NCBI RefSeq assembly: GCF_024346975.1
Contig: NZ_AP024885.1
Location: 1,240,001-1,304,000, forward strand
Direction of reading: 5' to 3'
DNA from: Vibrio neonatus
GTDB lineage: Bacteria > Pseudomonadota > Gammaproteobacteria > Enterobacterales > Vibrionaceae
DNA length: 64,000 bases
The position numbers and the translations under genes are program-made. This document shows, in pieces, positions 2,963-60,166 of this stretch. The notes under the pieces are model-generated. The model was not told the DNA's origin and did not search any database. It saw nothing but the letters and a program-made list of their open reading frames with translations. The stretch's first letter is position 1; each line of letters opens with the position of its first letter.

Positions 2963-2965
2963 TTG

Positions 2966-3015
2966 AAAAGGGGTCAGGTCTTGAAATTTGCATTTCAAGA
3001 CCTGACCCCTTTTTT
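2966..3015. repeat. Palindromic GGGGTCAGGTC repeat, copy R1
   Basis: Two complementary arms of about 21 nt (AAAAGGGGTCAGGTC... and its reverse complement ending CCCCTTTT) around a TTTGCA centre. The A-run before and T-run after would make this a bidirectional intrinsic terminator between ydiJ and the convergent DUF3581 gene. First of ten loci of the same repeat family in the window (R1-R10). Confidence 0.95.
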
Positions 3016-3145
3016 AGATGCTGTTACTTATCGAAGTTGTTTTTGGCTTCGTTAAATTTGTCCACGTAGGCCATCATGTCTTCTTCTACCCAAGGGATAA
3101 GACCGCTGGCGATCATGCGCTTGGTGCCTTTGCCAATCACTTGTT
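3016..3145 (-). pseudogene. Ectopic duplicate of the 3' end of the DUF3581 gene
   Basis: This segment repeats the last ~39 codons plus stop and the trailing bases of the gene at 3206-3913. Within the coding part it differs at five positions, and all five are synonymous third-position transitions (ATC/ATT, GGT/GGC, CGT/CGC, GTA/GTG, GAT/GAC). It lies between repeat copies R1 and R2, so repeat plus gene tail form a tandem unit of about 182 bp. The fragment has no start and is not expected to be made alone. The pattern suggests an allele from a related strain rather than a copy decaying in place (inference). Confidence 0.9.
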
Positions 3146-3197
3146 AAAAAGGGGTCAGGTCTTGAAATTTGCATTCCAAGACCTGACCCCTTTTTTT
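3146..3197. repeat. Palindromic GGGGTCAGGTC repeat, copy R2
   Basis: Second copy, nearly identical to R1 (GCATTCCAAG instead of GCATTTCAAG in the right arm), with A-run and T-run flanks. It lies 8 nt downstream of the DUF3581 stop codon and would serve as that gene's terminator on the minus strand. Confidence 0.95.
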
Positions 3198-3205
3198 AGA
3201 TGCTG

Positions 3206-3913
3206 TTACTTATCGAAGTTGTTTTTGGCTTCGTTAAATTTATCTACGTAGGCCATCATGTCTTCTTCTACCCAAGGGATAAGACCGCTGGCGATCATAC
3301 GCTTGGTGCCTTTACCGATCACTTGTCCTTCACCTTTAAATTCAAAGTTTAAGGTCACAACGCCGCGTTTACCGCTTACATCGAAGGTGGCACTGCTTAA
3401 ATCAACCGTTGGCTGTTTAATATCAAAACGACTGAATTCAAGTTTCATGCTTTCGTAAATAATAAGAGGGCGCTTGGTGTTGAACATCATTTGTTCTTCT
3501 TTCATAAGAGGAACCATGATGTGTGGGAAGTTCATTCCAGAAAATTTCACATAGCCGCGAATCACATTTTCGATAAGCTCTTTGTCAGTGCTGTTATTGC
3601 CGTTGCGGTTGAGGCTGAGGTATTGTTTTTCTTTCGTATCAACAACGGCACTGATTTCTTGGTTTTCGTGCTCTACTTTTAGCTTTACACCGTCACCCAC
3701 CATTCCAGAGAAGGTGAACTCCATGTTTTGGCTGATCCCTTCTTTTTGTAGTAATACAGCGAATAAAAGATCGCCCGGTACACAGAAGCGTTTGTGGTCT
3801 TCGTCATGGATAGGGTTAAAGTCACCGGCAATGCCTTTGGCAAAATTGCTAGCTTGTTGACGAGTAAAATAAAACGACGAATCTTCATTTACGAAGTAAG
3901 GGGATAAAAACAT
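3206..3913 (-). CDS. DUF3581 family protein
   Basis: 235 aa cytosolic protein without signal peptide or membrane segments. It resembles the DUF3581 family conserved in Vibrio and Shewanella, whose function is unknown. Near residues 30-55 there is a stretch FNPIHDEDHKRF...VPGDLLFA that looks like the signature of MaoC-type hot-dog enzymes (N-P-[IL]-H-x-D followed by a G-x-L-F helix), so a hot-dog fold is possible (inference). The gene is monocistronic; its 3' end is duplicated downstream (3016-3145) and followed by repeat R2. The start ATG at 3913 is the first in frame. Confidence 0.85.
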   Translation of the reverse strand: MFLSPYFVNEDSSFYFTRQQASNFAKGIAGDFNPIHDEDHKRFCVPGDLLFAVLLQKEGISQNMEFTFSGMVGDGVKLKVEHENQEISAVVDTKEKQYLSLNRNGNNSTDKELIENVIRGYVKFSGMNFPHIMVPLMKEEQMMFNTKRPLIIYESMKLEFSRFDIKQPTVDLSSATFDVSGKRGVVTLNFEFKGEGQVIGKGTKRMIASGLIPWVEEDMMAYVDKFNEAKNNFDK

Positions 3914-10000: not shown

Positions 10001-10047
10001 ACAAGGAGCCGTATCGTAAGGTATTGCGCTTTGATGGTACTGATACC

Positions 10048-10076
10048 AAAAGGAATTCTTCAAGAGTTCCTTTTTT
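10048..10076 (+). terminator. Intrinsic terminator after the sulfurtransferase gene
   Basis: Stem AAAAGGAATTCTT / AAGAGTTCCTTTT with one mismatch and a 2-nt loop, followed by more T residues; 47 nt after the stop codon at 10000. Confidence 0.8.
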
Positions 10077-10170
10077 ATTGCGATTTAGGTTTTAAAGCTT
10101 GTACTTTTTAGTTGCAGGTAGGGGATGTTAGTAAACTCATTTCTGACTCTTTATCATTTAGAGCAATTAC

Positions 10171-10395
10171 TCATTCGAACTTTGTTTTTCTATGCTCGCC
10201 GACACTTCGCACTCCACTGCTAAAAAAGCTGAGAAATTGTTCAATCAAAGTGTGGGTTATATCAGAGCCATGACGAATATTGCAATGTCGAATGAAATAG
10301 CAGTTCCAATAGAGGTAGGATTTTTCTGTTTGATAGCTGTAATGGCATAACCTGATCTCTGTCCGTATAGCATCCAAAAATGTTAATTGCCCCAT
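10171..10395 (-). pseudogene. Truncated integron integrase (intI relic A)
   Basis: 74-codon frame. Its first ~57 residues look like the N-terminal SAM-like domain of integron integrases (FLDAIRTEIRL...HYSYQTEKSYLYW...YFIRHCNIRHGSDI...IEQFLSF). After that the homology stops and a short unrelated tail runs to a stop, so the whole catalytic domain (R...HxxR...Y) is missing and the protein cannot recombine DNA. Position and orientation are those of Vibrio intIA: just downstream of rplT and reading away from the cassettes. The same N-terminal region aligns without gaps to a second relic at 28330-28530. The integrase assignment rests on my memory of the family and is firm on topology, less so on subfamily. 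Confidence 0.8.
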
Positions 10396-10723
10396 AACTG
10401 TTACCTTACTAATTCACTGTGTTTATATACAGTTGCAGTTAAGGTAATAACTATGAAAAAGATGCATAAATCGTTTGATTGGCGCATCGATAATACTAAC
10501 TTTTAGACATGAACACATTATTATCAATCGTTTGTAATATATAAAATTGCTATGCAGATCTCGTAAAAACTTATGCATCTTTTGTATCCGCTAAATTGTT
10601 ATGTTCAACTCATGTTTTTATTAAAAAATGCATTTACAACAATCACTTACAGGTGATATTTTAATGATGAAACTTACAGGAAAACAAGAGGTTATCCTGC
10701 TGCTAATTAATAAGCTGTTATGT
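10396..10723 (+). other. intI-attI leader region of integron relic A
   Basis: About 330 bp without a gene, AT-rich, between the divergent intI relic and the first cassette. It should contain the intI promoter (see LexA box), the attI site and the cassette promoter Pc. A GTTATGT at 10717-10723 is the probable attI x attC crossover point (G/TTRRRY-like; the same GTTATGT follows attC2 at 16117-16123). I could not assign Pc hexamers with confidence. Confidence 0.6.
10417..10432 (-). promoter_or_regulatory. LexA (SOS) box upstream of the intI relic
   Basis: CTGTGTTTATATACAG, i.e. CTGT-N8-ACAG with an AT-rich centre, 21 nt upstream of the relic's ATG. Integron integrases are known to be SOS-controlled through a LexA box at this place. 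The operator is intact although the gene is truncated. Confidence 0.8.
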
Positions 10724-10751
10724 GCCAGCGACAACAATAAGTAAGGTAAGC

Positions 10752-11555
10752 ATGATTTTATTAAATGACATTCTAAATTTTGATAATTTAGATAATGTGA
10801 AGATTAGGTTCAACCTAATGTTTTCTGATAACTGGAATCCGTCAGAAATATATGGAATGCGAGATTTTTCAACATTATTAAACGGGCACTATCACAACTA
10901 CAGTCACAATCGTTCGTATAAAGAGGGGCAAATCACCGTTGGCTTCCTGAAAATCGAAGACGACAAATTTTTGTTATTCCACGTTGGAAAAGTGACTAAA
11001 GATTTGAATGTCTTTAATGGTGTCGGGTACGAATACGAGTCTATCCCTAAATATGAGAAGTACTGCGGTCGCCTAGTAGTTAAATTTCAAAATTCATCTC
11101 AAAATATGGTTAGAAGAGCTGTTTCAGTTATTGATGATATTTCTGTACATGAAATCTTATCCGATGATTTTAGTAATGATAAATTCCCAGGGTACGACAA
11201 TGTAAGATTATCATGGGGTGAAATGCATTCGGTACTTCAAAAGGACAGTTGGAAGACAGCACTTGAGAATCAAAAGGCAATTTACTTAATAACTGATAAA
11301 CAAAGTGGCAAGATGTATGTAGGTTCGGCTAGTGGTGAACAAATGTTACTGGGGCGGTGGAAGTCATATGCACGTAATGGTCATGGCGGTAACGTTGAAC
11401 TACGACAGCTGACATTTGACTATATCCAGAACAACTTTGAGTATTCGGTCTTAGAAATATTCAAATCTACTACAGATAGCAGCTTGATCATCGAACGCGA
11501 ATCATGGTGGAAGCAAACATTAAAATCACGACAGTTTGGGTACAATAGTAATTAG
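10752..11555 (+). CDS. Cassette 1: GIY-YIG nuclease-like protein
   Basis: 267 aa from the ATG at 10752 (AAGG 9 nt upstream; the in-frame ATG at 10722 overlaps the recombination junction and has no ribosome site). The C-terminal third carries a GIY-YIG-like core: AIYLITDKQSGKMYVGSA, then GRWKSYARNGHGG, then an ERE segment (IIERESWWKQTL), where the metal-binding Glu is expected. The first ~165 residues match no family I know. Probably a DNA endonuclease domain with its own recognition module; a role in phage or plasmid defence is only inference from its place in an integron cassette. Confidence 0.75.
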   Translation: MILLNDILNFDNLDNVKIRFNLMFSDNWNPSEIYGMRDFSTLLNGHYHNYSHNRSYKEGQITVGFLKIEDDKFLLFHVGKVTKDLNVFNGVGYEYESIPKYEKYCGRLVVKFQNSSQNMVRRAVSVIDDISVHEILSDDFSNDKFPGYDNVRLSWGEMHSVLQKDSWKTALENQKAIYLITDKQSGKMYVGSASGEQMLLGRWKSYARNGHGGNVELRQLTFDYIQNNFEYSVLEIFKSTTDSSLIIERESWWKQTLKSRQFGYNSN

Positions 11556-11566
11556 CATCAAGCACA

Positions 11567-11663
11567 TTACAAGCATTTAAGAGTGATTCACAACGCTTGG
11601 CATTATTCATTCCATCGTGGGGTCTTGTGTTTATGGTGGTATGGTTAAGTTTTGCTTAATGTA
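11567..11663 (+). repeat. attC site of cassette 1, 5' part
   Basis: Begins TTACAAGCATTTAAGAGTGA just after the cassette 1 stop and continues with the CAACGCTTGGCATT and TTGTGTTTATGG blocks typical of Vibrio repeat (VCR-like) attC sites. The site is broken by the IS1111-type element; its distal end appears to be the TTAGGC at about 14156-14161 (GTTAGGC, a perfect GTTRRRY core). Confidence 0.75.
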
Positions 11664-11678
11664 GCTACATGGATTCTC

Positions 11679-11926: not shown

Positions 11927-12788
11927 CTACTTAAGCAGTATAGTTTTCATATTCTGTTTGATTGTGTAAAGCGACCATATAATTCGTGCGTTCTTCGCGG
12001 CAAGAGCCACTATCGCTCGGTTCATTCCTCTTCGTTCTAGAACGCCTCGACACTACTGACTTAACTTATCTTGCTTGTCGTCAGGTTAGCAATGAAGGTT
12101 CTAGCCCCATGAACTAATAATGTTTGTAAGTATTTGTCGCCGTGTTTGGTTATCCGACCTAACCGAGTATTGCAGTAGCAGTTTGTGGCCCAATACCTCG
12201 AACTTTCATCGCTCGTTGAACATTAGTGCTGACCTTAGCAAAAGAGTCAAAGATTTGCTCAGTATCGGCGGTACGTTGATTCAATTCTCCAAGGTAGTGA
12301 TAAGTCTCAGCAATAGCTGTTCTTGCGAGGTGTGGCAGTTCATTTTCTGCGTCTTCAGCATTAAGGGAACCTGTTTTATTAATGAAGAGAGGCCAACAGG
12401 AATGATCAACCCGAATTCAGAGAGCAAGGCACGCATGCGATTCATAAGAGCGGTGCGCTCACGAACCCAATGCTCTCTCATTCTATGTACCGATAAGATG
12501 GCTTGTTGTTTGAGGGATTTTACAGGCACAAAGCGAGTTGATGGTCGTTGAACAGCTTCGCATATAGCAACAGCATTATTAAGGTCGTTCTTTCCCTTAG
12601 TTCGATAAGGAATGACGTATTTAACGGCCATAATAAGGGCGTCGTTCCCCAGTGTTCTTGCCCAATAATGTGCACCACCACACGCTTCAACGCCTATACG
12701 CATGAGTGGCATATTTGCTATTGTAGTGGTTTAATGATCCCGGACACCCAATTAGGTGATAAAGTCACCACAATTAATGAGGTGTTCA

Positions 12789-13948
<1,160 letters not shown>

Positions 13949-14174
13949 CCACTACATATTGTAGTCAGTAGTTTAGAGCGGGTTACCGACTTATGAAGTA
14001 TGAGTTTACCATTTTGGTCTACAGCATGAAGACTAAAGTGGCTTTTAGCTAGGTCGATACTGCAGAAATAAGAATAATCAGACATGGAGCCTCCGATGCA
14101 TGTAAGTACCATATAAGGGTGGCAGATTCTCAGTAGGGAGAATCCATGTCATTTGTTAGGCAAATGGATAAACT

Positions 14175-15999: not shown

Positions 16000-16139
16000 A
16001 AAATAGGTGTCCATTTTATCGGGTGAAGATCACTATCAACGGTCGGCAATTTTAGTTCTCGTTTGGTACAGTGTTTACGGTAGCTAGTTTAAGCGTTGTT
16101 AGCCACTTAGCTGGGCGTTATGTATTGTAGGAGGGTTCT

Positions 16140-16901
16140 GTGGGAATAGGTTCAAATTATATGGTTGAGCTCATGGAGGAGCAGCACCAAGAAGCAAAAG
16201 AAGATTGGATTCGTGAGCAGTTAGTTGATAAAGACGCAAATGAATACAGTGCTGGCTGGGATGAGCTTTCGGATGCATACGATGAAATGAGTGCAAATGA
16301 TGAGCCGTATTACGAAGACTGGAATGATAATTGGATTGAACCAGATAAATCTAGAAAAGAAATATACATTGAAGCTGTAGATGTAGCATCAGAATTATTA
16401 TCTGCATCACTGCGGCCATCAGTAAAAGAAAATGTACTAATAATGCTTCATGGTCATATTGTCGCCGCACTAGAGGGGTACTTATCTTCGACCTTCATTT
16501 CAGCAACTTTGTCTTCTGATGATCTTGTTCGTAAATTGGTTGAAACGGATCCAGAATTTGCGGGTAGAAAATTCACAATTAAAGAAATATTCTCGAAACA
16601 AGAATCATTAAAAGGTGATATCGCAAAATATCTACAGGATCTTATTTTCCATAAAATTGATAAAGTTCGTCCTATGTACAAGAGTGTGCTAGATATAGAT
16701 CTTGGCGAAACATCATGGTTGTTTAAGGCTGTATCAGTGCGACATCATTGTGTTCACCGAGCAGGATATGATCATGATGGGAACAAAGTTCAGATCTCAA
16801 CTGATGATATCGAGTTGCTAATTCAGCGCTGTACTTCATTAGTAGAAAACATAGATGCTGAAATAGTGAAGCTTCTTTTGATGGGTACAAAAAATACATA
16901 A
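16140..16901 (+). CDS. Cassette 3: HEPN-like protein with acidic N-terminus
   Basis: 253 aa with GTG start and a strong AGGAGGG 5 nt upstream. The first ~80 residues are very acidic (EEQHQEAKEDW..., DELSDAYDEMSANDEPYYEDWND). The C-terminal half contains VRHHCVHRAGYD near residue 200, an R-x4-H motif followed by a short hydrophobic turn, as in HEPN-type putative RNases. The stop TAA opens attC3. No relative recognised by name. Like cassette 2 it may be a stress or defence RNase (inference). Confidence 0.7.
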   Translation: MGIGSNYMVELMEEQHQEAKEDWIREQLVDKDANEYSAGWDELSDAYDEMSANDEPYYEDWNDNWIEPDKSRKEIYIEAVDVASELLSASLRPSVKENVLIMLHGHIVAALEGYLSSTFISATLSSDDLVRKLVETDPEFAGRKFTIKEIFSKQESLKGDIAKYLQDLIFHKIDKVRPMYKSVLDIDLGETSWLFKAVSVRHHCVHRAGYDHDGNKVQISTDDIELLIQRCTSLVENIDAEIVKLLLMGTKNT

Positions 16902-16993
16902 CAAAATATTCAAATGGACTAAAACGCTCGGTATTATCGCTTTGAAGCGAAATTTTACGCCAAACGTTTTTGCCATTTAGCAGGGCGTTAGGT
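16899..16993 (+). repeat. attC site of cassette 3 (intact)
   Basis: Starts TAACAAAATATTCAAATGG and ends GCCATTTAGCAGGGCGTTA with a good GTTRRRY core (GTTAGGT, 16987-16993). The outer blocks CAAATGG and CCATTT are complementary, as required for the folded bottom strand. The only complete, uninterrupted attC in the array. Confidence 0.85.
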
Positions 16994-17005
16994 GAACAGG
17001 AAATT

Positions 17006-17521
17006 ATGCAAGCAATAATTGAAACGAATAGACTAACTCTTAGACCCTTTACCGAACTTGATGCAACAAGAGTCGCAGAACTAGCGGGTGAAAAAGTCAT
17101 CTCAGATATGACAGCGAATATCCCATATCCCTACGACTTAAGTGATGCTGTTGACTGGATTAGAACGCATCAAGATTTATTCAACACTGGCAAAGGTGTC
17201 GTCTACGCTTTGCTTTTAAAGAATAGCAATACTCTAATTGGTACAGTGGGCTTTCCTAGGATTGAAGAGGGAGAGGGGATATTAGGGTATTGGTTGGGTG
17301 TTCCTTTTTGGGGCGTCGGTTATGCTACGGAAGGATCTAGAGCACTAATCGAGTACGCTAAAGAGAATCTAGGTCTCAGCAAACTCAAAGTCATGCATTT
17401 AACTGAAAATGATCGTTCAAAATCAGTTATAAGTAAGTTGGGTACAACGTATGTTGGAACCAAAACAATTCAAGCTCAAGGTAGAGTGCGTGAGGTGTGC
17501 GTTTACACGGCGTGGTTATAA
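17006..17521 (+). CDS. Cassette 4: GNAT acetyltransferase (RimJ/RimL type)
   Basis: 171 aa from ATG 17006 with AGG upstream; the longer frame from 16970 would start inside attC3. TNRLTLRPFTELDA at the N-terminus and GYWLGVPFWGVGYATEGSRALIEYA (GxGxA loop with W-G-x-G) are signatures of the RimJ/RimL acetyltransferases, which modify ribosomal proteins, antibiotics or metabolites. Common cargo of Vibrio integrons. Substrate unknown. Confidence 0.88.
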   Translation: MQAIIETNRLTLRPFTELDATRVAELAGEKVISDMTANIPYPYDLSDAVDWIRTHQDLFNTGKGVVYALLLKNSNTLIGTVGFPRIEEGEGILGYWLGVPFWGVGYATEGSRALIEYAKENLGLSKLKVMHLTENDRSKSVISKLGTTYVGTKTIQAQGRVREVCVYTAWL

Positions 17522-17529
17522 ATTCACCA

Positions 17530-17565
17530 TACAAGCATTTAAGCGTGATTCCTTAATTTGACGTT
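17530..17565 (+). repeat. Truncated attC after cassette 4
   Basis: TACAAGCATTTAAGCGTGATTC matches the 5' block of attC1 (TACAAGCATTTAAGAGTGATTC), then identity is lost. No 3' core is visible before the next gene, so the array ends here by deletion. 17566-17794 holds no gene or clear signal. Confidence 0.65.
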
Positions 17566-17794
17566 ATTTTCTCAAATATCAGCTAATCCGTTATATCCTA
17601 ATTTAGTAATATAACTGACAAGGTTTTGTCCAATATGGTGTTAGAAATCAACGCCTTAATGAGTCTGATGTGACTATACATTAAGGCATTGGAGTACGTT
17701 TACTCGGTTAAGGTAACAGTAAAGCGCAATGGCTTGGCCGTATAGGTTCCTTTTTTGACAAATGTTCAATCAATTAATCAATTACGCCTTGAGC

Positions 17795-26999: not shown

Positions 27000-27230
27000 C
27001 GTTCTTTGTTGGTTGATGTAATGATGGAAATACGGGTATATCTAGCTCTTTCATCGTAAGCAGCAAAGCAATGGAGTGGGGCATATGTAAAGTATTGCTC
27101 TCTTAGTTTTCCCTGATATTATCACCATACTTACTCCCATAAACAGGTTATTTTTATTAGCTTGATCAAATCTACAGCCAATGAAAGTGGTAGCATTGAC
27201 ATCTATTATTTGAGGTCTACATCTACAAGT

Positions 27231-27316
27231 AGAAGCCCACTCTAAGGAAGCACAAGACCTAACGATGGAATGAAAAATCCCAAGCGTTAAAAATCACTGT
27301 TAAATGCTTGTATAAG
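27231..27316 (-). repeat. Stray attC-like site of integron relic B
   Basis: Read on the minus strand it begins ATACAAGCATTTAACAGTGA, then TTAACGCTTGG, TCATTCCATCG and TCTTGTG, block for block like attC1 at 11567 (TACAAGCATTTAAGAGTGA, CAACGCTTGG, TCATTCCATCG, TCTTGTG). The distal core is eroded (GGGCTTCTA where GGGCGTTA is expected). It follows the stop codon of the 52-aa ORF by 3 nt, just as an attC follows a cassette gene. 26.9-27.2 kb holds nothing else but a terminator. Confidence 0.65.
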
Positions 27317-27319
27317 CAA

Positions 27320-27478
27320 CTATTTATTGCCACTTTTTGCTGGTGGTTTTACTGGGGGGATTGGCCTACGTTCATAACGAGTTGGATTATAACCACCTTT
27401 AACTCTGTCATCAGCATTTGTAGGATTGCTTTGATGAGAATGTGGTCTATTCGGTTTCTGGGGAGTCTTTTGGCTCAT
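27320..27478 (-). CDS. Small Pro/Asn-rich protein (52 aa) in the relic-B cassette
   Basis: Frame starts ATG at 27478 inside the end of the membrane-protein gene (32-bp overlap in another frame) and runs to TAG just before the attC-like site. Composition is Pro/Lys/Asn-rich (MSQKTPQKPNRPHSHQ..., ...PIPPVKPPAKSGNK), without Cys or hydrophobic segments. The tight overlap argues for translational coupling with the 213-aa protein. Coding status is inferred from overlap and position. Confidence 0.55.
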   Translation of the reverse strand: MSQKTPQKPNRPHSHQSNPTNADDRVKGGYNPTRYERRPIPPVKPPAKSGNK

Positions 27479-28088
27479 TATCTATTTCCTCTTCTGTTTT
27501 CATAAATTCGATGAATTCAATATCTGCTTTGTGGAACAAAATACCATGAGAATTAGTTTCAACATACTCTCCATCATCAACCCATGCTGCTTGTGTGAGG
27601 TAGATAAAACCCTCATCAGGATCATTAGAAAAATATGTTGGCCAACCCACTATAATTCGGTCATCTTTTAGGTGAAGTGATAAAAACCTAACTTCGTTGG
27701 TAAAAACATCATCCCAAACCGTTTGTCGTGAAGTTTTATTTGTTAAGCGAAGCTTACGCAAAACTAACATATGATAATCGTAATGAGTAATAGCTCCCCA
27801 AATTAGTGGTAAAACAATACTCGACACGATGGTTATAGAAATCAACAGTTTGTCAGCAGACATTACATAAGAAAAATCATTACCTATTTTCTGGTACTTA
27901 AAGGCTGGAGCCCAACCATGTACATATTCAACAAAAGAGTAAATGGCAAGATTATAAATAAGCCCCTCAATCAAGCGATCTATATTGTCTTTAACTTCAA
28001 CACTCCGAAATAAATCATAGATTTTTAGGCTCAAAAAACCTGGTATTAGCAACATGATAATGTTGATCAATTCATACGATATTTTCAT
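27447..28088 (-). CDS. DUF6338-like membrane-associated protein (relic-B cassette)
   Basis: 213 aa. N-terminal hydrophobic helix (ELINIIMLLIPGFLSLKIYDL, broken by the conserved-looking PGF), a second hydrophobic stretch near residues 80-100, then a soluble C-terminal domain with short strands (DRIIVGWPTYFSNDPDEGFIYL). Resembles DUF6338-type proteins that anchor by one or two helices and carry a cytosolic beta-rich domain; identification is tentative. First gene of a two-gene cassette ending at an attC-like site. Confidence 0.65.
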   Translation of the reverse strand: MKISYELINIIMLLIPGFLSLKIYDLFRSVEVKDNIDRLIEGLIYNLAIYSFVEYVHGWAPAFKYQKIGNDFSYVMSADKLLISITIVSSIVLPLIWGAITHYDYHMLVLRKLRLTNKTSRQTVWDDVFTNEVRFLSLHLKDDRIIVGWPTYFSNDPDEGFIYLTQAAWVDDGEYVETNSHGILFHKADIEFIEFMKTEEEIDNEPKDSPETE

Positions 28089-28329
28089 TCAATTTACCAT
28101 AAATCAATAATGTATAGATTGTGTGCGTTACATTTCGCATTCCACCTTTACATAAAAATTGGCCTGCGTGTTATCACTTTTTAACAATGTTCATTATTTT
28201 AGGAAGATAACGTATTAATCATATGATTAACAATAACTTATTTGGTTTGCTCTCAACAAAACAAGTTATTACTAAAACCGAATTCGACTTTAATAAGCTG
28301 TATTAATACATGGAAAAGCGCGTTTAGAG
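28089..28329 (-). other. attI/leader-like spacer of integron relic B
   Basis: 241 bp, about 70% A+T, no gene, between the divergent cassette gene and the intI relic, the place where attI and both promoters would lie. CTGTATTAATACATGG at 28298-28313, 17 nt before the relic's ATG, looks like an eroded LexA box (CTGT-N8-ACAG with the last block altered). Confidence 0.4.
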
Positions 28330-28530
28330 ATGGCAAGCAAGTTTATAGAATCAATTAGATTACATATGCTAATAAGGGGTTTTAGCCCAAAAGGAGAAAA
28401 AGGAGCCTAATATTGGATGAAATAGTTCATGTGCTTCAACTGTAGTGAATTAACGTGTTTGACCATATCGTTAGAGTCATGGGTATCAGGAAAAGTAAGA
28501 CAAATTGTCTGGATTCAAAATAAGGAATAA
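28330..28530 (+). pseudogene. Stop-riddled integron integrase remnant (intI relic B)
   Basis: Starts ATG (MASKFIESIRLHMLIRGFSP) and keeps one frame to 28530 with internal stops at 28408 and 28426. Read through, residues FIESIRLHMLIRGFSPKGEK then YWMK then FMCFN align without gaps to relic A (FLDAIRTEIRLCHYSYQTEK, YWNC, FIRHC), including the paired Y-W and F positions and the later SGKV typical of IntI N-terminal domains. Only the N-terminal domain is recognisable. Function lost. The weak identity makes this a supported inference, strengthened by the attC-like site on the other side of the cassette. Confidence 0.6.
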
Positions 28531-28693
28531 TGCAACTCTAGGTCGCTTTTGTGTAGACCTGAGTTACATAGCTGAACCGTCTAGATCAATCCATCAACTT
28601 TACCTACATTAAGCAAATAAAACTGACAGACTGATTCAGGTTAATCTAAATATTAATTAGATCGTTGCGCTTGTTTCTTGCGTCAAACCAAAC

Positions 28694-28957
28694 TCACTCA
28701 ACTCTCTTACCACGCCTAACCTGATACACCGCGATATTCTTCTCAGTGAGATGCCTTACAACATCAGGGATCGTTTGCATCGGCATTGCCATTTGATAAC
28801 CGTGCTCAAGATGCACTATCTGATCGGCGCTTTTATTATTCAAAAACGATGTCAGTACATCGAGAGTTGCGTCTTGTGACGTCTCTTGCGCGTGAGCGAC
28901 CTCAAAGTAAACAAGATATAAATCGTCGCTATAGTCCTGTGGTGTTCCATTATTCAT
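28694..28957 (-). CDS. Hypothetical protein (87 aa)
   Basis: No family recognised. Soluble; N-terminal acidic stretch (PQDYSDDLYLVYFEVAHAQE), central helix, and a C-terminal VVRHLTEKNIAVYQVRRGKR that looks like an alpha/beta ending. GGAGGC precedes the ATG (minus strand), which supports translation. Flanked by the intI relic and the divergent efflux operon. 28531-28693 has no visible feature. Confidence 0.65.
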   Translation of the reverse strand: MNNGTPQDYSDDLYLVYFEVAHAQETSQDATLDVLTSFLNNKSADQIVHLEHGYQMAMPMQTIPDVVRHLTEKNIAVYQVRRGKRVE

Positions 28958-29142
28958 AGTGCCTCCGGGATAAAGAATTGACTGCTATTCATACCGCAAT
29001 GGTTGATGTTTTAAACATAAACCATTGCTAGGGGCTGATCTAGAGAATACAAGTGACGAAAAAGCATTTATATGACGTGAGACGTGTTTGTTGCCAAGGT
29101 ATGTGACTGCGATAGAAGTTTATTTCTTAGTATAAAATAATA

Positions 29143-29164
29143 TTTTGTTGCACATGAAACAAAA
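29143..29164. promoter_or_regulatory. Inverted repeat upstream of the efflux operon (probable MarR operator)
   Basis: Perfect 7-bp arms TTTTGTT (29143-29149) and AACAAAA (29158-29164) around 8 nt, the size of a MarR-type operator, just downstream of an AT-rich -10-like TATAAAAT (29131-29138 region) and 42 nt before the operon's first ATG. The operon's last gene is a MarR regulator, so autoregulation is the simplest reading. Confidence 0.6.
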
Positions 29165-29206
29165 AGAGAATACTATCACCTTAAATATTGTTGCAGGTGA
29201 AACATT

Positions 29207-36307: not shown

Positions 36308-36919
36308 ATGAAACCTTCGCAAATAGAAAAAGCTTACGATCAAATTACGCACTTATGGGAAAGTGAGACATTTGATCGCTCAAATGGCATCGAACAGCAT
36401 AAAAAAGCGATCTCATTTACGAGTAATAAAAGAAAAGCATTAGATATTGGCTGTGGATGCACAGGACGTTTTATCGAGTTGCTTTTAGAGGAAGGCTTTA
36501 CGCCTTCGGGTATCGATATATCGTCTAAAATGCTAAAAATCGCAGGGAAAAGACATCCTAACGTTGATTTTACACATGCTGATATCTGTGAGATTGAATT
36601 AGAAGATAAGTACGATTTCATTACTGCATGGGACAGCATCTGGCACATACCTCTTGCCGAGCAACGTAATGTCATAAGCAAGATCGTGGCAAGTTTAAAT
36701 GAAGGCGGTGTGTTCATTTTTTCCTTTGGCGGTTTAACCGAAGAAGGCCACCACACAAATAGCGTAATGGGACCTGAAGTCTATTATTCATCCCTTGGTA
36801 CTAACGGCTTTTTGAGCTTATTCCTAGAATTAGGATGCGTTATTCGCCATCTCGAATTTGACCAATACCCCGAACTTCACACCTACCTTATCGTAGAAAA
36901 GTGCGGGGTCAGGTCTTGA
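36308..36919 (+). CDS. Class I SAM-dependent methyltransferase with repeat-derived C-terminus
   Basis: 203 aa. Motif I is KALDIGCGCTGRF near residue 45, followed by GIDISSKMLKIA (motif II acidic loop) and a DICEIELEDKYDFITAWDSIWHI segment. Substrate unknown. The last residues ...CGVRS and the TGA stop are encoded by the first arm of repeat R7, so the original C-terminus was replaced or extended when the repeat inserted (inference). Confidence 0.85.
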   Translation: MKPSQIEKAYDQITHLWESETFDRSNGIEQHKKAISFTSNKRKALDIGCGCTGRFIELLLEEGFTPSGIDISSKMLKIAGKRHPNVDFTHADICEIELEDKYDFITAWDSIWHIPLAEQRNVISKIVASLNEGGVFIFSFGGLTEEGHHTNSVMGPEVYYSSLGTNGFLSLFLELGCVIRHLEFDQYPELHTYLIVEKCGVRS

Positions 36920-36953
36920 AATTTGCATGCAAATTTCAAGACCTGACCCCGCA
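36902..36953. repeat. GGGGTCAGGTC repeat, copy R7 (perfect 52-nt palindrome)
   Basis: Two 26-nt arms, exact reverse complements with no spacer (36902-36927 and 36928-36953). Its left arm codes for GVRS-stop of the methyltransferase. On the far side it ends GCAATAAA, close to the GST ribosome site. Confidence 0.96.
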
Positions 36954-36984
36954 ATAAAACGGCCCCTTTATAAAGGAATAGATA

Positions 36985-37590
36985 ATGAAAGTATATGGAG
37001 ATTTACAATCTGGGAATTGCTTGAAAGTTAAGATGTTATTGTCATTTTTACAGATTGAACATGAGTGGATCCATGTTGATATCTTAAATGGTGAGTCAAA
37101 AACAGATTCTTTCTTGACGAAATTTCCGAATGGAAAAATTCCTGCAGTGGAATTGGATGACGGGCGTTATTTATGTGAATCTAACGCCATTTTAGGCTTC
37201 TTTGCTGAAGATACATCTCTTTTGCCTCATGATAGCTTTCAGAAAGCAAAAGTCTATGAATGGCTGTTCTTTGAGCAGTACAGTCATGAACCCTATATTG
37301 CGGTTGCGCGTTTTATTCAAAAGTATCTAGGTATGCCAGAGGAAAGAAGGGATGAGTATTTGTCGCTTCAAGCAGGGGGAAATAAAGCCCTGCAGCTAAT
37401 GGACAATCAATTGAGTCAGACGACATACCTTGTTGGCAATGAAATGACGATAGCCGATATCGCCTTGTATGCCTACAGCCATATTGCAGATGAAGGTGGA
37501 TTTGATCTCAATCGATATCCTGCGGTGCAGCGTTGGTGTCGCCAAATTCAATCGATGCCTAGATATGTTGGAATTGGGGTCAGGTCTTGA
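36985..37590 (+). CDS. Glutathione S-transferase with repeat-derived C-terminus
   Basis: 201 aa. Thioredoxin-like N-domain (MKVYGDLQSGNCLKVKMLLSF; GKIPAVELDDGRYLCESNAIL with cis-Pro and the ES that binds glutathione) and helical C-domain with TIADIALYAYSH (N-capping box). Conjugates glutathione to electrophiles, or has a related thiol role. The end ...IGVRS-stop is again supplied by a repeat arm (R8), exactly as in the preceding methyltransferase. Confidence 0.92.
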   Translation: MKVYGDLQSGNCLKVKMLLSFLQIEHEWIHVDILNGESKTDSFLTKFPNGKIPAVELDDGRYLCESNAILGFFAEDTSLLPHDSFQKAKVYEWLFFEQYSHEPYIAVARFIQKYLGMPEERRDEYLSLQAGGNKALQLMDNQLSQTTYLVGNEMTIADIALYAYSHIADEGGFDLNRYPAVQRWCRQIQSMPRYVGIGVRS

Positions 37591-37624
37591 AATTTGCATG
37601 CAAATTTCAAGACCTGACCCCGCA
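37576..37624. repeat. GGGGTCAGGTC repeat, copy R8 (perfect hairpin)
   Basis: Arms 37576-37598 and 37599-37621 are exact complements, followed by GCA. It lies between the convergent GST and pullulanase genes: the GST stop is inside it and the pullulanase stop (37626-37628) is 1 nt beyond it. Confidence 0.96.
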
Positions 37625-37625
37625 A

Positions 37626-40600
37626 TTAACGTTGTTCGAATATGGCGGCTGTCCAGGCTGGGATTATGGCGATGTTGTCGGTGAGTTCGGTGCCTTGGGT
37701 TAGTGAGAATGGGCCTAGTTGCTGGTGGTAGCGGTGCAATTTGAATTGGCTCATGTCCAGTTGGTTTATGGTTTGTAGATCGTTGCGGGCGTTGATTACG
37801 ATAAGCAGTCTTTGACGCACAGAGTCGATATTTTCAAATGGGGCTCGGTTGTCGATGCTCATTATGATAAGTCCAGGGATCTGCTTTGAGCCAGTATTAT
37901 GGAATTTAACTCGTTGAATAATTTCTCTGCCATCGCCTAAGGTAAAGAGTGGGCTACTGGCTCGAATTTCCATCATTTCTTTGAAGTAGCGTTCCATTTT
38001 AATCATATCGCGGGTCGAAAGTTCCACTTTGCCTTGGGTGTTTTCGTAGATGCTTTCAATCGTTTGCCAATTGTTTTTATCTTTGTCGGCGCTCGGTAGT
38101 CCAATATTCCAGTTGTTAGACTGCTTTGTAAAATCGACTTTGTTATACCAATCCCCTGAATTGTACGAATCTCTTTGCATTGATTTTGAGCGCAGTAATT
38201 CACTGCCCATATGATGAAAAACCACATTTTGCCCGTACATGACGGTAGCTAGACTAACCGCGTGCATACGGATGCGAGTATTAAGATCTGCATCAAAAGG
38301 CGCTTTATATTGCAGGTTATCCCATAGAGTTTGATTGTCGTGTTTTTCAACGTAATTGATGGTTTCCCACGCATCTTTGGCATAACCAGCAGGTTGGTTG
38401 TTGTAATCTAATTCAGCGCCGGTAATTGAACGATTTTGACTATCTTGCATCGGATAATCACGTAAATTACCTGCCATACCAAGGCGCACGAGATCGGCAA
38501 GATGCTTAGCTTGGGTTTCACTTAGCGCATTTAGCTCATTAGGATAGACAAAAGCGCCATTTCCAAACCCTTGCGATGCTCTTAACTGTGTTGATTGATC
38601 AAAGGGGGAACCGCCACGCACCGCATCGCGCATGCGATCGGAAAATGATCCTATACCCGTGCCGTATAAATTGAGCTGTGACGCTTGTTTGAACATTTTA
38701 TCGTTGGCGACTTCGCCAAAATCCCATCCTTCACCATAAAAATAGACATCTGGATTGATGGCTTTGACGGCATCTAATGAGGCTAATATCTGCGATCTTG
38801 GATGATGTCCCATAAGATCCCAGCGAAATGCGTCGATTTTATAATCTTTTGTCCAAACCAATATGGAATCAGTGATCAGCTTTTCCATCATAGCGCGCTC
38901 TGGAGCGGTATTGGCGCAACAGGTACTTTGTTCGAGTTCTCCGGTAATAGGATGCAGTCTGTGATAGTAGTTAGGGACAATTTTATCGAGCACTGATTTG
39001 TCAGCAAGACCTGCGGCGTGAGTATGGTTATACACCACATCCATCACCACGTTCATTTTTATATCAGACTTAATTGCCGCAACCATAGTGCGAAATTCTA
39101 AAATACGTTGCATGCCATTGGCGCTAGTGGCGTATGATCCTTCGGGCGTTGAATAATGGAAGGGATCATAGCCCCAATTGTAGCTGTCGTTTTTAGCGAT
39201 GATACCGGTTAACTCTTGCACTAGTGGTGTGGTGGAACTGTCCTTGTTTTTGAGTTGTTGCAACACTTGTATTCCCGTTAACGAGCTTTCGCAATACACA
39301 GATAAATCGGCATGACGCAACAGCTCTGGGTTAGCCTGACAAAGGGTTTTAAAAGGCTGATTAATATTGGCAATTTCAGTGACTTCTTCATTGATAGTGG
39401 CAATATCAAACACGGGTAATAAATGTAAGTGACTTGCTCCACGTCGTGACAGTGATTTCAAATGCTTTACGGGTAATGAATTCTCGTCAGTAAAAGCGAG
39501 GTATTTGCCTCGATGTGCTTCGATTGTGGAGAGTTCAAGGGCCGAGAAGTCTCTTACATGCGTTTCATAAATTACAAAAGAAGCCGGATTTTTCTGCGCT
39601 ACTGGCGCACTTAGCGCATCCCAACCGGCAGGCTTTAATTGTGGATGATTAAGATCCACAACTTGGCTATGTTGCGAGTTGGTGGAAAGACTCAATGAAT
39701 AAGGGTCGGTAACTGAAACGGTTTCTATTCTTGCTGAGTTTGGATGAAACAGCGTGACTTGATAACGATAGAAATCCCCATGCGTTAGGTTCGCGTATTC
39801 AACAAACCAACTTCCTGAACCAATATCACGACGCATGAGAATAGGAGTACCCGCTTGCAACTCTTGGTTAAATGGGATTAGCTTTACTTGCTGCGCGGTA
39901 GGTGCCCAAACGCGAAATGAAGTGGTGTTAGTTTCACTATCAACTACCGCACCAAATTGTAACTGTGTTGCGTTTTCGGCATACAAAGCATCCAATAGTG
40001 GCGCGAGTTGCACTTTGGTTACCGATTGTAATGTTGCAGGTTGATTGGCCTCTTTTTTATCACGGCTATAACTGGCAACCCAGATCTGCCCGCGAATTAA
40101 ATGATCAATTGAACCGCCAGTATCATTAATTTGCAGTTGATAAGCGTTAAACTGCGTCGAAAGGTGAGGATATTGCGCCTTCCATGAATCATCAGCTGTT
40201 TCAATAAGGGAGAGTGTTTTCGATGCTCCTTCAATCTGGTTTTGTTGTTCGTTGACACTCATTCCGCCTGTTGCCGCAATCACAAGTTGAGCTTGCTCAG
40301 TTTCAATAGGAAGTAATATCAGCGAAGGTGTGATCCAATGTGCTTTAGCATCTTGCACAGCAATGGACGATTTAGGCAGAGTTCTTGATGGGGTATAAAA
40401 AACGCGATTCGTATCTTTGAACACATAACCTACCTTAGCGCCTGGTGCGGATGATTGTGCAAACATCAGTTTTAAGTGAGATGTTTGATAATTAGGATCA
40501 AAGCTGTGCGGCATAAAGTTAACGCAGCTTGCATTGGTTTCGATAGGGATATCCCAATACAGCCCATAATTGGGATTACGTCCACTAGGCTCTAGCCCAT

Positions 40601-58924: not shown

Positions 58925-58928
58925 GTAG

Positions 58929-58994
58929 TGCGGGGTCAGGTCTTGAAATTTGCATGCCGCAAGCGGTATGCAAATTTCAAGACCTGACCCCGCA
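58929..58994. repeat. GGGGTCAGGTC repeat, copy R9
   Basis: Complementary 26-nt arms around a central mini-hairpin CCGC-AA-GCGG. Lies between convergent ssb and aldolase genes, within 4 nt of each stop codon; probable bidirectional terminator. Confidence 0.95.
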
Positions 58995-58998
58995 ATTG

Positions 58999-60072
58999 CT
59001 ACGCTTTCGCGTTTAACCAATCTAAAATGGAGAGTATGCGTTGGTCGGTTAGGTTTAGTAGGGTGTCGCCTACGTAGATTTCGACCAGTGTTTGGTTTGG
59101 ATGTCCGGTGACTTGTGGGAAACCTAGCCAAACTTTTTCTTCTATTGCCAAGTCGTCGCGTATTTGTAGCGCTGTTTTTTGATCAAACGGCAAGATCAGA
59201 TGCAGCATATTTGCTTGTGGTTGGCTTGGGCTTAAAGTGAATTTTGGATAGCGAGCAATCAAAGAGTACAGCTGTTTAGTGCGTTCAAATAACGCGGGCA
59301 TTTGTGCCAGTCTTTGGTCAAATTGCATGGCTGCTGAGACAACATAAGGGCTACGGTGAATTACATTGCCCCCTTGTCGCTGCATCCAGCGACTCGCTCG
59401 TTTAATAAATGCTTGATCGCCAAGCAAGATTGCGCCGCCTAATCCACCCAGTCCTTTGTATAAAGAGACGTAAGCGGTATCAAAACCTGCGCTAATTTCG
59501 TGATAAGGTTTTTGATAGTAAGCGGCGGACTCCCAAAGTCTTGCGCCATCCATATGTAGGTGAATGTTGTTGTTTTGGCAATGATTCTTAATTTTTTCTA
59601 GCTCTTGCCACTCAAGCAGTTGTCCACCAATTTCGCGCATTGGCAATTCGTACAATACCGCGGCTAATTCATCTGGGCAGTTTTCAAGGTCGTCAACAGT
59701 CCAAGGTTGGTATCGATTACCCAGCGGAGCAACAGTAAAGCGTTGTTGCAGTTGGTAGTTTTGATTTTCATGGCGCACGATATGGCTGCTTTCATGCATG
59801 CCCACTAATGGGTTGCGTTTGCTTCGACAAACAAGATCCAATGCAGTGACTTGCGCAAGGGTGCCAGTCATGACAAACAATCCCGCTTCATAACCTAATA
59901 GCTTGGCCACTTTCTGTTCAAAGCTCTGAATCAGCTCTCCCGTGCCATAAACATCGTGCTCAATGTTGTTTTCTTCACACCATGTTGCCATTTGTGCGTA
60001 CATTTCGGCCGGCGTTGGATCGCGGTGACCATAAAGAATGGTGTCGCATTGATTACGTAGATTTTGTGTCAT
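58999..60072 (-). CDS. Threonine-aldolase-like PLP enzyme (beta-eliminating lyase fold)
   Basis: 357 aa from ATG 60072 (AAGGA 9 nt upstream). An in-frame start at 60141 would add 23 residues encoded largely by repeat R10 and is rejected. Low-specificity L-threonine aldolase/beta-eliminating lyase fold: DVYGTGELIQSFEQKVAKLLG, HMDGARLWE (Asp for the PLP ring), SLYKGLGG (Schiff-base Lys). Likely cleaves threonine or another beta-hydroxy amino acid to glycine. Confidence 0.88.
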   Translation of the reverse strand: MTQNLRNQCDTILYGHRDPTPAEMYAQMATWCEENNIEHDVYGTGELIQSFEQKVAKLLGYEAGLFVMTGTLAQVTALDLVCRSKRNPLVGMHESSHIVRHENQNYQLQQRFTVAPLGNRYQPWTVDDLENCPDELAAVLYELPMREIGGQLLEWQELEKIKNHCQNNNIHLHMDGARLWESAAYYQKPYHEISAGFDTAYVSLYKGLGGLGGAILLGDQAFIKRASRWMQRQGGNVIHRSPYVVSAAMQFDQRLAQMPALFERTKQLYSLIARYPKFTLSPSQPQANMLHLILPFDQKTALQIRDDLAIEEKVWLGFPQVTGHPNQTLVEIYVGDTLLNLTDQRILSILDWLNAKA

Positions 60073-60100
60073 GGAAACAATCCTTTGCTTGTGATGGGAT

Positions 60101-60163
60101 GGGGTCAGGTCTTGAAATTTGCATCGCCAAAGGCGATGCAAATTTCAAGACCTGACCCCGCAA
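60101..60163. repeat. GGGGTCAGGTC repeat, copy R10
   Basis: Complementary arms around a central mini-hairpin CGCC-AAA-GGCG, different in sequence from R9 but equally paired. It lies 28 nt upstream of the aldolase start and 3 nt downstream of the sgrR stop, so it would terminate sgrR and separate the two same-strand genes. Confidence 0.95.
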
Positions 60164-60166
60164 TAA

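Follow-up and report, generated by a model that had tools for sequence, protein, structure and literature searches.

The interval from 27231 to 28530 of a window in the Vibrio neonatus genome raises the question of whether a second, decayed integron lies there and, if so, whether it shares an origin with a first relic on the far side of pheST. The window, meaning the whole stretch of DNA that was analysed (64,000 nucleotides, G000:C1:1240001-1304000), belongs to a genome of 3.84 Mb in two contigs with a completeness of 100, whose pheS has sequences of Vibrio and Photobacterium as its closest named neighbours. Its genes run thrS, infC, rplT (assigned from its position and its match to relatives), a LysR gene, a 160-aa ORF, a mercaptopyruvate sulfurtransferase gene, relic 1 and IS elements, followed by a GNAT gene, a glucose/sorbosone dehydrogenase gene, pheS, pheT, an RNA helicase gene with smaller genes, relic 2 and an HlyD gene; relic 1 thereby sits in the rplT-pheST interval, three genes away from rplT. 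It is very probable, in our judgement, that 27231-28441 is what remains of a small integron of one integrase lineage (lineage 2), that relic 1 belongs to a different lineage and was separately acquired, and that the facing layout of the two most likely arose by chance. An Rfam scan of the window gave nothing above threshold. The window also holds a 183-base tandem duplication (2963-3326) and, near gene ends in the regions 36899-37629 and 58926-60165, several copies of short palindromic repeats, to which a repeat of about 30 bases recurring in this genome and in that of the relative G096 is related (query 1031-1066).

A first-pass annotation had proposed a second relic here, in the order intI, attI, cassette, attC, facing relic 1 from the other side of pheST. 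The orientation is as described, and the relic itself is confirmed by DNA alignment: 28083-28441 matched positions 144-529 of an intact attI-intI reference from G096 at 67% over 387 columns (E 5e-47). The reference gene of lineage 2 is G096 C37:20580-21518 (389 bits; locus L184). From 28083 onward the window was 72% identical over 180 columns to L184:8294-8472, upstream of the intact intI, and 28330-28440 was 74.8% identical over 111 bases to L184:8569-8679, inside that gene, with order and orientation both kept. We read 28083..28300, on the strand of intI (plus), as a remnant of the lineage-2 attI and intI-promoter region, and 28330..28440 (plus strand) as an intI remnant of about codons 1-37 with two in-frame stops; the DNA of the latter is 66-75% identical to the 5′ ends of intI genes at nine of the loci retrieved. 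The gene breaks off at reference position 529, about codon 37, and a complete IntI reading frame is lacking. Of the stop-interrupted integrase frame once drawn as far as 28530, the part at 28330-28440 stands, and nothing beyond 28440 is recognisable as intI; the tail up to the conserved flank (28441..28610, no strand assigned) shows weak likeness only, at 28459-28506. The resemblance of that short stretch is to the sequence following attI in three copies that lack intI (74-79% over 42-47 bases, E 8e-4 to 6e-3).

At the protein level the expected likeness of the read-through peptide to IntI was recovered in part. The first open piece of the relic 2 intI had the L184 IntI as its best match among 21 proteins (62.5% over 24 aa, E 1e-7), whereas a TIGR02249 search with stops read through did not report relic 2 at E<=10, and a profile of three IntI only left its open pieces unmatched at E<=1. 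The relic 2 gene can be called intI only as a truncated remnant, by its DNA homology to intact intI; TIGR02249 itself missed it. Beside it, the region flanking attI is kept and the core end of the site is missing, and the intI remnant and the cassette point in opposite directions around attI, so that the integron plan proposed earlier holds in order and orientation but without an attI core.

On the minus strand, the two-gene unit ending at an attC-like block was found as described. It comprises a gene for a DUF6338 protein (27447..28088, open over 213 aa; Pfam E 3e-20), a second, overlapping cassette ORF of 52 aa (27320..27478), and a truncated attC of the Vibrio type (27248..27312), whose alignment to full attC sites indicates that the R′′/L′′ side is kept and the L′/R′ core side replaced. 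A protein of Vibrio navarrensis shares 76% identity with the DUF6338 protein and begins at the same residue, for which reason the gene looks whole. The gene occurs in one of 227 genus genomes, this one alone, and so leaves no cassette trail to follow; PADLOC returned nothing for the protein.

The attC block had been said to match that of relic 1, and 27248-27312 does align with 11568-11632 at 86% over 65 bases; the block is nevertheless truncated and lacks the R′ core. Set beside complete attC sites from relatives, both blocks of the window keep the 5′ arm, that of relic 2 without the 3′ half carrying the core and that of relic 1 shortened with no clear core. A cassette end with the R′ core GTTRRRY was not found at relic 2, where the left part alone is present. 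When 27200-29200 was searched against the genus, a match at E<=1e-5 turned up in 121 of 227 genomes, with two candidates per genome scored, and the attC block accounted for most of the matches listed. Common in the genus and here without its core, the block shows homology to the complete attC sites of relatives, the stem of which shows covariation. An attC covariance model scored relic 2 weakly, at 17.2 bits (E 0.07 in the window, span 27194-27315). Folded as bottom strands, the window sites were equalled or bettered by 56/200 and 57/200 shuffles, and full-length sites of relatives by 31/200 and 107/200.

Relic 2 shares its attI, promoter region and intI start, in the same order, with the chromosomal integron of the L184 / V. 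chagasii IntI type (TIGR02249), and differs from it in that intI ends after ~37 codons and that the attI core and the attC core side are lost. The segment 28083-28242, in some genomes extending to 28440, recurs in other members of the genus and at one further place in this genome (C1:645713-645871). We aligned 16 fetched lineage-2 copies, relic 2 among them, to one intact reference. Fifteen of them begin at reference 92-99, the attI core, where cassettes take over, and relic 2 alone begins at 144, hence our view that it has lost the core end of attI. None of the 16 is intact and most end early; the longest (in G108, G096:C36 and G160) are interrupted all the same. Two or more copies each were present in this genome, G015, G096, G127 and G177, and open pieces near lineage-2 attI copies matched IntI in L160, L163, L165 and L168. 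An attC lay on the expected side and strand in 8 of 12 other loci with a lineage-2 attI (L163, L167, L168, L184, L185, L188, L191 and L192), and the attC model found none in L161, L162, L164 and L186. By eye, several copies have a right end in common (GGGGCAAAAC...GTTAG-like), placed downstream of either the leader or the gene of intI, as would be in keeping with a platform able to move in its own right between core-like ends. That the lineage-2 platform is a discrete unit which repeatedly enters Vibrio chromosomes and then dies seems to us doubtful. In L184, the stretch L184:9716-9852 matches a group II intron (RF02012, E 6e-16) and lies just downstream of the intact lineage-2 intI of G096, near the point where likeness to G108 ends.

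Among related genomes, G082 and G096 carry other DNA at the site of relic 2, which is absent from both. Their flanks are 94-96% identical to the window up to 27040 and again from 28611 or 28686, and the gene that they have in between, which we take to be cold-shock/DUF1294-like, is 85% alike between the two and missing from this genome, where only its short repeat was matched. The flanks are thus close to those of relatives without relic 2, while the relic itself has diverged from the intact copy by a third and may have been decayed before it arrived. One serious, if minority, possibility is accordingly that relic 2 never worked at this site, a dead fragment of a lineage-2 array having arrived at, or been swapped by homologous recombination into, a variable site spanning 27040-28611. 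Such a history fits both the other DNA carried by G082 and G096 and the strong decay of relic 2 within such similar flanks, for which a swapped-in fragment is the leading variant; weighing against it, no donor array was seen, and the rate of decay in unselected DNA is uncalibrated here. It is a variant of our preferred explanation and compatible with the first part of it. In that preferred explanation, a lineage-2 platform (intI, attI and promoters) would have captured the two-gene DUF6338 cassette, and, because the left edge of the cassette is not at a core site, we can only infer that capture was by IntI, through the usual attI x attC reaction. Function would then have been lost as intI and attC were truncated and the attI core disappeared, all three of which are observed, and relic 1, of a different lineage and with an array of its own, would have been acquired separately, about 16 kb away.

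The lineage-1 intI remnant of relic 1 (10145..10395, minus strand, open over 10171-10395) matches TIGR02249 positions 1-54 (E 1e-6) and is 92% identical to G082 and 91% to one G096 copy. The adjoining attI region (10396..10721, minus strand) was delimited by comparison of copies, which diverge just after CTGTTA near 10720. In G082 the platform occupies the corresponding position (88%), and G096 has its attI and first cassette there. This cassette (10722..11555, plus strand) encodes a GIY-YIG protein that matches UzuA models (PADLOC E 1e-59) and is 95% identical to a GIY-YIG protein of Aliivibrio fischeri; judged by these matches, it is likely to be a defence gene left behind in a dead integron. 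All on the plus strand, there follow the shortened attC without a clear core (11565..11670; covariance model 38.7 bits, E 1e-6), a second attC (16011..16123; 47.4 bits, E 1e-8), a probable cassette gene of 253 aa (16140..16901) with no family in Pfam or NCBIfam and a weak PADLOC match (E 0.002) only, an attC ending in GTTAG (16897..16993; 33.5 bits, E 2e-5), a probable cassette gene identified by domain search as a GNAT acetyltransferase (16970..17521), whose true start probably lies after the attC, and a weak attC fragment (17527..17569; 15.3 bits, E 0.19; 95% over 22 bases at C1:1257530). With three attC sites at E <= 2e-5 and one weak site bounding its cassettes, relic 1 still holds an array, broken up by IS elements. 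The covariance model was built from 29 Vibrio sites out of 41 trimmed (47 found), five of the 29 supplied by G023, after removal of near-duplicates, of sites lacking a clean end and of the site from this genome; 94.6% of its cells were paired, and it stood above all 500 shuffles on five measures, the structure being taken from the same alignment.

One IS in the relic 1 array (12722-13956; HTH_Tnp_1 and rve transposase ORFs, ends TGTAGTGG/CCACTACA) has eight copies in the genome, 98-100% identical, and four of the eight have an integron remnant no more than about 1.1 kb away (C1:1252722, C1:646142, C2:827220 and C2:1012648). We do not claim that it prefers integrons; insertion sites differ, and an exact 3-base duplication was seen, by eye, in 4/8. 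A dispersed repeat of about 125 bases (window 10018-10144) adjoins relic 1, occurs also in G082, G096, G015 and at 647 kb of contig C1 of this genome, and in places adjoins a further remnant on its intI side (L162, L182).

The first-pass annotation had offered either an inversion that split one integron or the acquisition of two. The attI regions of the relics are unlike (best 21 bits, E 0.16). The start of the relic 1 intI resembles the lineage-2 reference weakly (63% over 147 bases, E 8e-7), with chance matches only beyond it, and the relic 1 attI did not match that reference. In an IntI tree of 27 sequences, from which 2 of 21 IntI rows were left out (L039 and L041, long or divergent) and for which 8 of 120 listed proteins were used, the L184 representative of relic 2's lineage grouped with V. 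chagasii P0019 and with IntI of Bermanella, Marinomonas and Shewanella, apart from eight same-genus genes (G001, G002, G004, G007, G008, G012, G023 and G024). Of 12 loci fetched from the same genus, five have intI immediately next to rplT (L146-L150, L147 judged from its place); four of these five genes were placed in the tree, all within the eight-gene clade, so that relic 2's lineage falls outside the rplT-linked Vibrio clade. Relic 1 was itself too short for the tree, and its seven best IntI matches all lie outside that clade. Lineage 1 is rare, being present in five of 227 genomes, this one included.

Since the attI regions are unlike, the lineages differ, and G082 and G096 have the genes between the relics in an unchanged order except for the cassette and IS region, these comparisons argue that two separate platforms of different integrase lineages were acquired and that relic 2 is not half of relic 1. 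That a single integron was split by inversion, its ends now facing each other around pheST, is very unlikely: the opposite orientations and the 86% identity of the attC blocks would suit it, but the block is common in the genus, each relic has an intI start and attI of its own, which an inversion cannot double, and the unlike attI regions and the conserved gene order led us to reject it. That the likenesses of relic 2 are accidental, or come from a dispersed repeat that has nothing to do with integrons, we consider next to impossible, even though the profile searches missed it, given the E 5e-47 alignment to attI-intI, a score of 181 bits against at most 32.6 bits for the best of 500 random sequences with the dinucleotide make-up of 28083-28441, by which a chance match was rejected, and the presence of the same block beside intact and near-intact intI genes in relatives.

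The two acquisitions leave their proximity to be explained. The relics had been placed 10 kb apart; their attC blocks are in fact separated by 15.6 kb and their intI remnants by ~18 kb. No intact IntI was found, none in this genome (0/1) exceeding the TIGR02249 cut-off; below it, the profile gave relic 1 and eight other matches, the best of which we read as XerC/D-like. Four attI remnants (relic 1, relic 2, C1:645713-645871 and C2:826612-826855) and at least 13 attC matches at E <= 0.05, from a scan that scored 150 out of 1265 candidates, amount to about 12 integron-derived places; attC matches elsewhere numbered 75 in G023, 19 in G002, 18 in G096, 7 in G082 and 0 in G091. Twelve places form 66 pairs; multiplied by 34 kb / 3840 kb, these lead to an expectation of about 0.58 pairs lying within 17 kb, and to a chance of about 44% of at least one such pair, less for a facing pair. 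With so many places in the genome a close pair is unsurprising; a special meaning of the facing pair finds no support, and the layout around pheST is probably incidental. Among open-licence papers, no title on paired facing integron relics was found.

Clusters of attC sites without an integrase are known as CALIN. The relics likewise have attC sites without a working IntI and differ from CALIN in that attI and intI remnants persist; both integrons are apparently dead. The gain and loss of integrons in Treponema have reportedly been studied. Partial attI sites bounding cassettes are described in part of the text of another report (PMC12901181). In the excerpted text of a survey of intI genes, nearly one third of intI were pseudogenes and about a fifth of bearers had more than one intI, vibrios being exceptional with 4% pseudogenes (Nemergut 2008, PMC2426708). 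As in the pseudo-integrons described in that excerpt, intI here is stop-interrupted and non-functional and more than one lineage occurs per genome; against the 4% reported for Vibrio, the intI remnants found here are broken and of two lineages. Vibrio integrons adjoin rplT and their arrays translocate, according to the part of the text consulted of Boucher 2006 (PMC1382264). Like the integron of that excerpt, relic 1 lies between rplT and pheST and has Vibrio-type attC sites; its best IntI matches nevertheless fall outside the rplT-linked clade, and it lies three genes from rplT.

The case is one of ordinary decay of a known kind, its mild interest lying in the mixture of lineages among the remains. 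In this vibrio lineage, integrons belonging to at least two integrase lineages arrived, fell into decay and left open cassette genes behind, a multi-lineage decay that contrasts with the rarity of intI pseudogenes in vibrios given in the excerpted 2008 survey (PMC2426708). The relics are material for asking why integrons from elsewhere fail in a genus that is noted for a resident integron of its own.
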